Source: Cellulomonas sp. Leaf395 (GTDB lineage: Bacteria; Actinomycetota; Actinomycetes; Actinomycetales; Cellulomonadaceae). From it: DNA of 64,000 bases. Made by a program: the position numbers and the translations under genes. The notes under the pieces were generated by a model. It had not been told where the DNA came from and did not search any database. It saw only the letters and a program-made list of their open reading frames with translations. Every line of letters starts with the position of its first letter. The first letter of the stretch is position 1. Below are positions 3 to 36,531 of the stretch, piece by piece. The stretch covers positions 434,001 to 498,000 of the forward strand of contig NZ_LMQI01000004.1 of NCBI RefSeq assembly GCF_001424125.1. Direction: 5' to 3'.

Positions 3-536
3 GTGCTGCTCACCGACGCCCGCCGACCCGCCCGCACCGGGCCGCACGGCGAGCTGGTCTCGCTGGCCGACCAGGACCGCGCGGTCTGGGACCGCGCCAT
101 GGTCGACGAAGGCATCGCGCTGGTCGAGGACGCGCTCGTGCGCGGCGCCGTGGGGGAGTACCAGCTCCAGGCCGCGATCGCCGCCGTGCACGACGAGGCG
201 CCGAGCACCGACGCGACGGACTGGCCCCAGCTGCTCGCGCTCTACGCGCTGCTCGAGCGGATGACCGGCAACCCGATGGTGACGCTCAACCGCGCGGTGG
301 CGCTCGCGATGGTCGACGGACCCGACGCCGGCCTGGCCCTGCTGACGACGCTCGACGACCGGCTGCCCGGTCACCACCGCCTCGCCGCCGTGCGCGGACA
401 CCTGCTCGAACGTGCCGGCCGCCCGCAGGAGGCCGCCGACCAGCTGCTCCTGGCATCGCACGGGACCACCAGCCTCGCGGAGCGCGACTACCTCCGGGTG
501 CAGGTGGCGCGGCTGCGGCGAGGGCTGACACCCTGA
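3..536 (+). CDS. ECF sigma factor, C-terminal part (5' end outside window)
   Basis: The open frame runs in from the left edge, so this is the 3' part of a gene. The 177 visible residues hold no sigma-2 or sigma-4 helix-turn-helix. They match the helical, TPR-like C-terminal extension of ECF42-type sigma factors, with the hallmark segment TGNPMVTLNRAVALAMVDGP near residue 89 followed by GHHRLAAVRGHLLERAGR. In that family the extension is needed for sigma activity, and the genes usually sit beside a DGPF/YCII-domain protein. That partner, if present, would be upstream of this window. The next gene begins 5 bp after the stop and may be cotranscribed. Confidence 0.8.
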   Translation: MLLTDARRPARTGPHGELVSLADQDRAVWDRAMVDEGIALVEDALVRGAVGEYQLQAAIAAVHDEAPSTDATDWPQLLALYALLERMTGNPMVTLNRAVALAMVDGPDAGLALLTTLDDRLPGHHRLAAVRGHLLERAGRPQEAADQLLLASHGTTSLAERDYLRVQVARLRRGLTP

Positions 537-33822: not shown

Positions 33823-34329
33823 AACTGGCGCCACGGCTGCGACGACCCGCTCGCCTGCGACGAAGCTGCGGCGAAGTGCCCGCAGCGCAAGGACGGGGGA
33901 CTGATCCTGACCGAGCTCAAGACGAAACAGTCGCGACGTACGCTCCCGATCCCCGGACCGCTCGTGGCTCAACTACGACAGCACCGCCAGCGGCAGCGCG
34001 AAGCCCGCATCCACACTGGGTCGCTCTGGAGCGACTCCAAGCTCGTCTTCACGAACCTCGTCGGCCGCCCTGTGGCGCCACGAGACCACTCGCTGCACTG
34101 GACAGCTTTCCTCGAACGCCTCGGCATCCGTCCCGCCCGCCTCCACGATGCGCGTCACACGACCGCGACATTGCTCCTCGTCCAAGGCGTCGACCAGCGG
34201 GTTGTGATGAGCATGTTCGGCTGGACGTCCTCAGCGATGACGACGCGCTACCAGCACGTCGTACCCGAGCTGGTCGACGAGGCGAATCGTCGAATGAGTG
34301 AGCTCCTGTGGGGGCAACAGTCCAGCTGA
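33823..34329 (+). pseudogene. Tyrosine recombinase (integrase), C-terminal fragment
   Basis: Contains the catalytic domain of an actinobacterial tRNA-site integrase: a Cys-rich insert (HGCDDPLACDEAAAKCPQR), ELKTKQSRRTLPIP with the first catalytic Arg, HDARHTTATLLLVQGV with the HxxR box, and TTRYQHV with the nucleophile Tyr. About 170 residues remain; the arm-binding and core-binding N-terminal part is lost at the junction with the DsrE remnant. Its position beside tRNA-Ser fits the integrase that inserted this island. Confidence 0.85.
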
Positions 34330-34417: not shown

Positions 34418-34520
34418 CGAAGGGCCCGTGACCTACATCGCTGCAGGTCACGGGCCCTTCGACGGCGGAGGATGGGGGATTCGAACCCCCGAGGGCTTTC
34501 ACCCAACACGCTTTCCAAGC
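34418..34520. repeat. Right attachment repeat (tRNA-Ser 3' half plus hairpin)
   Basis: Direct-repeat partner of 25490-25593. The hairpin arms GAAGGGCCCGTGACC and GGTCACGGGCCCTTC form the tRNA terminator; the repeat continues through the 3' half of the tRNA up to the anticodon. Confidence 0.8.
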
Positions 34521-34550
34521 GTGCGCCATAGGCCACTAGGCGAATCCTCC
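34466..34550 (-). tRNA. tRNA-Ser (anticodon GGA)
   Basis: Read on the minus strand: acceptor GGAGGAT pairs with ATCCTCC, D-stem GCC/GGC, anticodon stem CACGC/GCGTG with loop TTGGAAA giving anticodon GGA, a long class II variable arm, and a T arm GGGGGTTCGAATCCCCC. Discriminator G; no encoded CCA. Intact and serving as attachment site for the island on its 3' side. Confidence 0.95.
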
Positions 34551-34908
34551 TGGCCTCAATAGGTCACGAAACCATTGGATGGCTCCGTGGCGCCTGAGGA
34601 CGCCGGACCAGAGTACCGGACCCTGACGCCCGCCCCGAACGTTCGCGACGACCTGCGAGACGCCCCTACCCACGTGCGCGTCTCGATGGACCGGCCTGTG
34701 AGGCGGCCGCCATCACGAGCAGCAGAGACGGAGATCCGGGAGAGAGCCGCACGCAATGGATGACGACCGACCGCATCTGGCCGGAACGACATCCGGCGTC
34801 AGGGGCGGTCGCGCGGCCGGTGTTCAACAGCTTGAGGTCTGATGCACCAGACAAATGGCTTGGAATCGGCCCATAGCGGGCCTGACGAACCTCCCGCACA
34901 ATGGCTCG
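34551..34908. other. Intergenic region, nothing identified
   Basis: 358 bp between tRNA-Ser and the LCP-type gene. Short frames on both strands lack recognisable features. It should contain the promoters of both flanking genes. Confidence 0.5.
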
Positions 34909-36531
34909 ATGACTCCGTCCGGAACGGATGCGTCGTCGGCTCCACCGAGCCGCTTCGACGTGCTCGTCGTCGGCAGCGCGAACGTGTCCCGGTCCCGCGC
35001 CGCCGAGCGGCTGATGCGCGCGCGGGTCGGGCAGGACGAGGGCATCGAGGTGAGCAGCGCGGGCACCCGCGCCGCGCTCGGCGAGCCGGTCGTGGAACCG
35101 TTCGACGAGCTCCTCACGGCCGTCGGCGCGTACACCGACGGCCGCTCCGCCCGTCAGCTCAGCACCGAGACCGTGCACTCGGCTGACCTCGTCCTGACGG
35201 CGACCCGGGAGGAGCGGGCGGCCGTGGTCCGCCTGGTGCCCGCGGCGGTTGGGCGGACCTTCACCCTCCGCGAGTTCGCGCGCGTGGCCGCGTCGCTCGG
35301 TCCGTCGTCGCTTCCCGAGGGCGACTTGGCCGCTCGGCTGTCCGCCCTCGTGCGCGCCGCGCCGCCCCTCCGCGGTCCGACGGCGCCCACCGTGGCCGCC
35401 GACGACGACGTGCTCGACCCGTCCGGCATGGGACCGGCTGCGTTCGAACGGTCGTTCGTCCAGGTGCAGGCCGCCGTCGACAGCATCGTGCGGACCGTCC
35501 GGCCCACCCTGGCGGACGGCGACCCGCCGCTCCCCGAGCCGTACGCGCCGCCGGCACGGCGGAGCCGCGGCCTGCGCAATGTCGCGCTGCTCGCCCTCGC
35601 CTCGCTGGTCGGGCTCGTCGTCGTTGGCACCGTCGGCGCCTTCGTCGCCATAGGCCTGCTCGACGACCGCGTCGAGCGGTTCCCCGACCCGTTCGCAAAC
35701 CTGTCGTCGCGCCCGGCGCCCTTCGTGCCCACGACTCCCGGAGGCGCGCTCCCGGTCACCATCCTCGTCCTCGGCTCCACGGACGACGTGCGGACCGACG
35801 ACCCCGACGCGTGGGCGACGGCGGCGGCCCAGACCGACGTCGTCATGCTGGCGCACGTCTCGGCGGACCGCTCGCACGCGCATGTGATCGCGATGCCCCC
35901 GGACCTGTGGGTGGAGGTGCCCGGCGAGGTGCCCGGGACGCTTCGTGCCGCGTTCGCCGAGGGCGGGCCACCTGGCGCCGTGCAGGCGGTCGAGCGGCTC
36001 ACGAACGTGCGGCTCGACCACGTCGCGCTCGCGGACTCCGAGACGTTCGCCCGGGTCACGCAGTCGCTCGGCGGGGTGACGCTGCCCCTGGAGAGCAACC
36101 TCGTGATCGGCGGTCGCGTGGTGGCCACGGCGGGCGAGCGACGGCTGACGGGGGAGCAGGCGCTGGTGTGGGTCCGGGGAGCCGTGGACGACGACCTCGG
36201 GCGCGCGCAGCGCTCGGCGGTCTGGCTCCTGGCGATCCTCGACCGCATGGGGGACGGCGACGTCCGCCACAACCCGCTCACCTGGCTCCGGCTGCTCGGC
36301 GTGATCACGGCGTCCGTGGCGGTCGACGAGGGGTTCGACCGCTCCGAGATGGTCGGCCTGCTGGCGAGCGTGCGGACCCTAGGACCTGGCGAGGTCGACG
36401 TCCTCCCCGTGCCGACGGTGCTCGCCGCCGGCGAGACCGGGGCGCTGCTCGTGCCGGACGCGGCGCCGTTCTCCACCCTCATGGACAGCCTGCGCACGGA
36501 CACGCTGGGCGCGCACCTCGACGGCGGCTGA
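34909..36531 (+). CDS. Fusion of degenerate LMW tyrosine phosphatase and LCP-like domain
   Basis: 540 residues. Residues 15-170 follow the low-molecular-weight phosphatase fold, but the P-loop reads VVGSANVSRS, so the catalytic Cys is Gly22 and the second loop Cys is Ser. A linker and one transmembrane helix (about 224-247) lead to a LytR-CpsA-Psr domain with LDHVALADSETFARVTQSLGGV and LTGEQALVWVRGAVDDDLGRAQR. The LCP PRD(S) motif is PPDL, losing the key Arg. Thus a cytoplasmic dead phosphatase is joined across the membrane to an LCP domain with an altered active site. Normal LCP enzymes attach glycopolymers to peptidoglycan; here a regulatory or scaffolding role is more likely. Start codon uncertain, no clear ribosome site. 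Confidence 0.75.
   Translation: MTPSGTDASSAPPSRFDVLVVGSANVSRSRAAERLMRARVGQDEGIEVSSAGTRAALGEPVVEPFDELLTAVGAYTDGRSARQLSTETVHSADLVLTATREERAAVVRLVPAAVGRTFTLREFARVAASLGPSSLPEGDLAARLSALVRAAPPLRGPTAPTVAADDDVLDPSGMGPAAFERSFVQVQAAVDSIVRTVRPTLADGDPPLPEPYAPPARRSRGLRNVALLALASLVGLVVVGTVGAFVAIGLLDDRVERFPDPFANLSSRPAPFVPTTPGGALPVTILVLGSTDDVRTDDPDAWATAAAQTDVVMLAHVSADRSHAHVIAMPPDLWVEVPGEVPGTLRAAFAEGGPPGAVQAVERLTNVRLDHVALADSETFARVTQSLGGVTLPLESNLVIGGRVVATAGERRLTGEQALVWVRGAVDDDLGRAQRSAVWLLAILDRMGDGDVRHNPLTWLRLLGVITASVAVDEGFDRSEMVGLLASVRTLGPGEVDVLPVPTVLAAGETGALLVPDAAPFSTLMDSLRTDTLGAHLDGG

Follow-up and report, generated by a model that had tools for sequence, protein, structure and literature searches.

Does a gene that joins a LMW phosphatase across the membrane to a LytR-CpsA-Psr (LCP) domain, with catalytic residues replaced in both halves, encode a decaying copy or a working pseudoenzyme? 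The question is raised by one reading frame in the window, by which we mean the whole stretch of 64,000 nucleotides from Cellulomonas sp. Leaf395 analysed here. A sequence-only reading had taken the P-loop cysteine of the phosphatase to be glycine and the LCP PRD motif to be PPD, and had proposed a sensor or scaffold that links cytoplasmic phosphotyrosine signalling to cell-wall glycopolymer assembly. On re-reading the frame we found both replacements, and both are fixed in all 15 fusions described below; one of these (L078) has PPE for PPD. The first ATG listed for the frame lies at 34855, ahead of the ATG at 34909. The latter is the same start as in 10 homologues (nine ATG and one GTG, in an alignment of 11 rows that includes the window protein). 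Upstream of the fusions, a promoter-like element was recognisable by eye in 9 of the 11 aligned rows, and it reads exactly GGACAA-N16-TATAGC in five of the nine rows that have it. The features of the locus are collected in Table 1.

Table 1. Coordinates of the fusion gene, its domains and key codons, and nearby or related features; positions are those of the window unless another locus is named.
Feature	Position	Strand	Remark
Phage-integrase C-terminal fragment	33964-34329	+	PF00589, E 5.5e-14; directly upstream of fusion
tRNA-Ser(GGA) gene	34464-34550	-	Beside integrase fragment
Promoter-like hexamer pair AGACAA, 17-base spacer, CATAGC	34849..34877	+	By eye, from upstream alignment
Whole fusion gene	34909..36531	+	540 aa plus stop; ATG start, TGA end
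LMWPc domain, residues 18-124	34960..35280	+	Pfam E 8.9e-15; by fold to about residue 200
Gly22 codon GGC	34972..34974	+	At nucleophilic Cys position
Arg28 codon, P-loop Arg	34990..34992	+	Kept in window protein; R in 10/15 fusions
Asp170 codon, general-acid position	35416..35418	+	Kept; D in 14/15 fusions
Predicted transmembrane helix, residues 222-255	35572..35673	+	DSSP on model; basic residues just N-terminal
LytR_cpsA_psr domain, residues 309-447	35833..36249	+	Pfam E 3.6e-20; by fold 268-538
Pro331 codon CCG, PRD Arg replaced	35899..35901	+	TagT R118 by offset used
Ala425 codon, second Arg of RxR replaced	36181..36183	+	TagT R219 by same offset
tRNA-Arg(CCT), locus L045	16801-16874
tRNA-Arg(CCT), locus L046	12632-12705
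tRNA-Arg(CCT), locus L048	20354-20427
tRNA-Arg(CCT), locus L054	12208-12281

Both Pfam matches of the window protein lie above the curated cut-offs, as does the NCBIfam match of its LCP half (TIGR00350), and the two Pfam families were both matched in 12 of 12 fusions scanned. Structure prediction, which the sequence-only reading had put forward as a check, yielded a model that matches solved structures of both folds. The AlphaFold2 model, calculated from a 32-row alignment, has a mean pLDDT of 80.2 and a pTM of 0.50. Ten-residue blocks score 80-98 at residues 11-200 and 63-93 at 271-540, while the linker and helix are poorly predicted (37-53 over residues 211-260). We take the model to fix the predicted fold of each domain, not their relative placement. 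The LMW half (model residues 14-198) superimposes on Escherichia coli Wzb (2wmy_A) with a VIA-align Z of 20.8 over 143 residues at 1.9 Å. The LCP half matches the LCP chain 3pe5_A (Z 22.2, 248 residues, 3.1 Å), TagT (6mps; Z 19.5, 242 residues, 4.3 Å) and A. oris LcpA (5v8c; Z 18.3). The sole hydrophobic stretch between the two domains contains the hydropathy maximum (window 233-251), and no 19-residue hydropathy window above 1.6 begins outside residues 211-249 of the protein. Directly before this stretch lies RRSRGLR; since the basic flank of a transmembrane helix marks the cytoplasmic side under the positive-inside rule, the phosphatase half is predicted to be cytoplasmic. By profile and predicted fold, the N-terminal half is classed with the LMW-PTPs and the C-terminal half with the LCP proteins, including their single membrane anchor as judged from hydropathy and the model.

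The P-loop of the window protein reads VVGSANVSRS, with Gly22 at the site of the nucleophilic Cys of Wzb-type enzymes. This column holds Gly in 15/15 fusions versus Cys in all 42 unfused rows that are ungapped at this column, the 43rd having a gap. The unfused rows were collected through their resemblance to the fusion and do not form a random sample of LMW-PTPs or, in the other half, of LCP proteins. According to the available text of PMC2777267, the Cys13Ser replacement in Wzb eliminated phosphatase activity. The P-loop Arg column reads Arg in 10, Pro in four and Asp in one of the 15 fusions; the C. septica protein is one of the five without the Arg. We considered the second P-loop Cys as a stand-in nucleophile and ruled it out, as it is kept in only 6 of 15 fusions. 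On the alignment, the fusions lack the nucleophile of the C-x5-R signature that an active LMW-PTP carries. Beyond the P-loop, 28 of the 36 columns conserved in at least 90% of unfused relatives are kept in at least 12 of the 15 fusions, and two, Cys22 and His102, are lost in all of them. At the latter position, His is found in 39 of 43 intact LMW-PTP rows and Glu in 14 of 15 fusions. The P-loops of two members, L077 and L078, read GTRNVCRSP against CTGNICRSP in intact enzymes; Thr23, Asn, Cys27, Arg, Ser and Pro are kept, the Cys and the small residue 24 are changed, and DPYG is retained.

Inspection of the LCP half gave a parallel picture of replacement. The motif reads AMPPDLWV, in which Pro331 replaces the PRD Arg, and this column holds Pro in 15/15 fusions versus Arg in 33/33 unfused LCP rows (about 31 independent ones, as they include the overlapping-locus pairs L003/L004b and L085b/L086b). 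The second Arg of the RxR motif, at position 425, is present in 0/15 fusions versus 33/33 unfused rows. The Asp and Arg of LGSDSR (positions D291 and R293) are absent from all 15 fusions and present in all 31 unfused rows that cover these positions, the other two of the 33 being gapped. An Arg at 308, held by 29/33 unfused rows, is likewise gone from 15/15 fusions. Of the 35 conserved LCP columns, 21 persist in 12 or more of the 15 fusions, and 10, including D291, R293, R331 and R425, are kept in at most one. The losses at D291, R293 and R425 go beyond the two that the sequence-only reading had reported, and in the phosphatase half the window protein retains both Arg28 and Asp170. A conserved LCP Asn (32/33 unfused rows) is Arg346 in all 15 fusions. 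The fixed replacements at His102 and Asn346 could mark new binding surfaces.

TagT numbering was transferred as an offset from a phmmer alignment to TagT, anchored at R118 as the PRD Arg. By this offset, the lost R425 would correspond to R219 and the kept R432 to R227. The text available from PMC7831098 ascribes roles in the reaction to TagT R118 and R219, and that from PMC6381275 equates R149 of A. oris LcpA with TagT R118 and states that R149A abolished both glycosylation and pyrophosphatase activity. The fusions lack this catalytic PRD Arg of an active LCP transferase, but with R432 and D310 kept some residual LCP function may remain. Separately, second LCP copies in two genomes (L081, L085 and L086, in G103 and G104) have TRD for PRD and NAD for RSD and form another divergent LCP subgroup; the copy in G104 adjoins that genome's LMW-PTP and LCP genes. 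Judged by their residues, the fusions are Cellulomonadaceae membrane proteins in which a Wzb-type LMW domain, one predicted transmembrane helix and an LCP domain follow one another and both domains have lost residues required for catalysis in characterised relatives. The earlier claim that catalytic residues are lost from both halves while the folds persist was borne out by the Pfam and NCBIfam matches, the structural matches and the unfused controls.

We then asked how widely the fusion occurs. A whole-genome search found full-length fusions in 11 of 81 genus genomes, and stop-free full-length fusions in 15 of 221 family genomes (search E up to 1e-85), the window's own genome being counted in both. 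Identity of the homologues to the window protein is 54-66%; full-length examples come from Cellulomonas humilata, xylanilytica, fimi HM71, septica, algicola, sp. Root485, biazotea, endophytica and edaphi and from Actinotalea solisilvae. No stop-free fusion was seen outside the family among 396 genomes sampled from the order (E up to 1e-50) or 296 sampled from the class (E up to 1e-60); neither sample is exhaustive, and the first look scored only 3-6 candidates per genome. The sequence-only reading had asked whether Gly22 is conserved in the same fusion among other actinobacteria, and it is, in 15/15. Homologues with an intact Cys and Arg, which it had named as the sign of a decaying copy, were also sought; the P-loop Cys is found in 0/15 fusions and the PRD Arg in 0/15. 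The fusion occurs twice in Actinotalea solisilvae (loci L050 and L053, which lie on separate contigs of a single assembly and encode the same protein) and twice in G110, whose assembly is listed at 9% contamination; these cases reflect either duplication or assembly redundancy.

The 16 full-length fusion places in the 15 genomes contain zero internal stops. Over 8 fusion pairs, the LMW half had a dN/dS (Nei-Gojobori, own script) of 0.17-0.42 and the LCP half one of 0.19-0.39. Intact stand-alone controls gave 0.16-0.36 for LMW domains (9 pairs) and 0.13-0.31 for LCP domains (6 pairs), while the linker and transmembrane part of the fusions spread over 0.09-0.99. Both halves are under purifying selection, similar to that on their intact relatives. 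The replacement residues are themselves fixed (G22, P331 and R346 each in 15/15 fusions), and the fixation of G22 and P331 argues against chance and against sequencing error. The loss is targeted, as most conserved LMW and LCP columns are retained, and the catalytic residues of both halves were probably lost in a common ancestor. Conserved loss of the nucleophile, a retained fold and continuing selection are marks of a pseudophosphatase, and the fusions display all three. A decaying single copy was rejected, since the gene belongs to a stop-free family of 15 genomes under purifying selection with fixed substitutions.

To trace the origin of the fusion, we calculated maximum-likelihood trees for each domain. 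The fused sequences form one clade in both, comprising 15 of 57 rows among the LMW domains (support 100/95, with the bootstrap unsettled at 0.986) and 15 of 46 rows among the LCP domains (support 100/100). A stem 1.0 changes per column long leads to the fused LCP clade, which joins Cellulomonadaceae LCPs with support 86/76. In this tree, rows outside the fusion clade drew a long-branch warning, and fusion row L076 has an unusual residue composition. Both trees were midpoint-rooted for drawing only. Minimum domain coverage was 140 (LMW) and 195 (LCP) profile columns in the trees and 130 and 160 in the residue table, and 24 repeat loci (21 fusions, 3 unfused) were left out of both, as were exact duplicate domains. 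The trees are consistent with one origin of the fusion family. Because the 'pair' label was compared with the fusion label alone, its single-change result says nothing on a shared origin of the unfused pairs.

Such pairs exist elsewhere in the order. In G249 and G447, from another family, an intact LMW-PTP gene ends in a stop, and two codons further on an intact LCP gene begins in the same frame; G040 has the same LMW-LCP order (6.8e-68). In G249, a BY-kinase gene (TIGR01007 above cut-off) lies 28 bases upstream of the pair; no BY-kinase was seen upstream of the pair in G447. The unfused locus L116 has the order kinase, LMW-PTP, LCP. Within the family, LMW and LCP genes are convergent neighbours in G104, G106 and G111, with a BY-kinase just before the LMW gene in G106. 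No unfused same-strand LMW-LCP pair was found in Cellulomonadaceae (E up to 1e-85, a limit at which a pair of G040 strength would be missed). The unfused in-frame neighbours plausibly represent the ancestral arrangement. We infer that the fusion arose within a polysaccharide operon of BY-kinase, LMW-PTP and LCP genes, by loss of the stop between two neighbours, and that catalysis would then have been lost in both halves.

The present neighbourhood of the gene differs between genomes. It is flanked in the window by two pyridine nucleotide-disulfide oxidoreductases, of which one carries a rhodanese domain, and by TrmO, and it lies outside polysaccharide clusters. No conserved neighbourhood emerged among the 11 loci compared, any one neighbour being common to at most 4; a CsoR-like gene lies upstream in four, including the window, and an integrase-like ORF downstream in four (both named by eye). 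The integrase fragment and tRNA-Ser(GGA) gene of the window (Table 1) are probably an old integration site. In 4 of the 10 named fusion loci scanned, tRNA-Arg(CCT) lies about 0.6-8.7 kb downstream of the fusion, and together with the integrase-like ORFs this indicates that the gene may sit near integration hot spots.

The window's own genome also encodes a BY-kinase with a Wzz-type domain, amid glycosyltransferase- and flippase-like genes that by eye resemble an exopolysaccharide cluster, and an intact LMW-PTP that adjoins a UDP-glucose/GDP-mannose-dehydrogenase-family gene. Thus partners for the fusion exist. A BY-kinase was found in 11/11 fusion-bearing genus genomes versus 45/70 others (Fisher 0.015, kinship ignored, with seven of the eleven genus fusions in one close clade). 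As the available text of PMC12220298 has it, kinase, phosphatase and LCP act in one pathway in other Gram-positives. The partners in the same genome, the co-occurrence with the kinase and this known pathway favour an adaptor. The doubly altered fusion suggests a non-enzymatic link between cytoplasmic tyrosine-phosphate signalling and extracellular sugar-polymer attachment, and the explanation we judge best, with a probability of roughly 0.55, combines origin by stop loss with a two-sided, non-enzymatic pseudoenzyme adaptor of polysaccharide assembly. The cytoplasmic pseudophosphatase would dock on a Wzc-like BY-kinase, or contend for that kinase with the intact stand-alone Wzb-like phosphatase. 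Outside the cell, the pseudo-LCP domain would bind the lipid-linked polymer or active LCP ligases, and the protein would thereby hold chain assembly and wall attachment together or restrain them. Where both the Arg and the Asp are kept, binding of phosphotyrosine by the P-loop could persist, as has been suggested for STYX-like proteins, and the five members without the P-loop Arg would act by protein-protein contact alone. The sequence-only link between phosphotyrosine and glycopolymer therefore holds in part: the order kinase, phosphatase, LCP in one unfused relative and phosphatase-LCP neighbours in five others speak for it, but the loss of the P-loop Arg from 5/15 fusions makes phosphotyrosine reading unlikely as the common function. 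The search missed the fusion in 70 of the 81 genomes of the genus, so whatever it does is not generally required.

Two other functional readings have to be weighed. The LCP-like domain alone might bind lipid or glycan at the surface, with the phosphatase-like part a folded anchor or stability domain that has no role in signalling. The five missing P-loop arginines and the position of the gene outside polysaccharide clusters fit this, as do the LCP residues that are kept (D310 in 15/15, D332 in 14/15, R432 in 14/15). However, the LMW half is constrained about as strongly as intact LMW-PTPs, and 28/36 conserved columns together with Asp170 in 14/15 are more than a mere anchor needs, so we think this unlikely. 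Alternatively, the Gly P-loop might bind the phosphotyrosine tail of the BY-kinase and shield it from the active phosphatase. STYX shares the Cys-to-Gly change and regains activity by a single back-mutation (PMC8622459, available text), and Arg28 in 10/15 and Asp170 in 14/15 fusions, with the mostly intact P-loops of L077 and L078, suit such a trap; but the usual phosphate binding is not expected with Pro or Asp for Arg in five of 15, and the residue following DP is aromatic in 3/15 fusions versus 32/42 unfused rows, which leaves the trap improbable. Decay, with the fusion a leftover of a former operon that is now being lost, would explain the patchy occurrence (15/221 family genomes), the long LCP stem and the further P-loop loss in five members, but is very hard to reconcile with zero stops in 16 places, dN/dS below 0.45 in both halves of all 8 pairs and replacement residues fixed across genera.

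To our knowledge, how the tyrosine phosphorylation cycle is coordinated with polymer attachment to the wall is not settled. A natural fusion of just these two components, kept after both losses, hints at physical contact between the phosphatase and LCP steps, and it offers a deletable gene and two mappable docking surfaces. In the literature searched, outside which most subscription papers lie, we found nothing that joins LMWPc with LytR_cpsA_psr, no LytR-CpsA-Psr pseudoenzyme and nothing on Cellulomonas with LytR and phosphotyrosine; a bacterial LMW pseudophosphatase was absent among the matches listed. PMC12113857 was rejected as a fusion precedent: the fusion in its available text is to a reporter, and the other matches are a reference and the entry ptpA2 in a table. 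Within that literature, these proteins might be the first bacterial LMW pseudophosphatase family and the first transmembrane protein with pseudoenzymes on both sides, a chemistry-free switch that passes the phosphorylation state of a BY-kinase to extracellular glycopolymer attachment; we advance this tentatively and with more doubt than belief. Overall, the analysis confirms the observation and partly supports its interpretation: two known folds, both apparently inactive, are joined across the membrane in a conserved protein whose pathway context is well founded and whose mechanism is a proposal.

Compared with known systems, the fusion resembles Wzb-type LMW-PTPs (PF01451; E. coli and V. vulnificus Wzb) in fold, Pfam match and 28/36 conserved columns, and its unfused LMW relatives in G249 and G106 have a BY-kinase neighbour; it differs from these enzymes in Gly for Cys in 15/15 members and in the added transmembrane helix and LCP domain. 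It shares with LCP transferases (PF03816, TIGR00350; TagT, Cps2A and A. oris LcpA) the fold and one transmembrane helix before the domain, but has Pro for the PRD Arg, has lost the second Arg of RxR, D291 and R293, and carries a phosphatase-like N-terminal domain. The eukaryotic pseudophosphatase STYX is a dual-specificity-type phosphatase of a different superfamily, without an LCP domain. Pseudophosphatases have been studied in eukaryotes, and STYX likewise has Gly for the active-site Cys (both from the available text of PMC8622459); by analogy, this precedent shows that a Cys-to-Gly protein can be a regulator. In the Wzc/Wzb and CpsBCD systems with LCP capsule attachment, the phosphatase and the LCP protein are described as separate, active proteins, whereas here they are joined in one chain.
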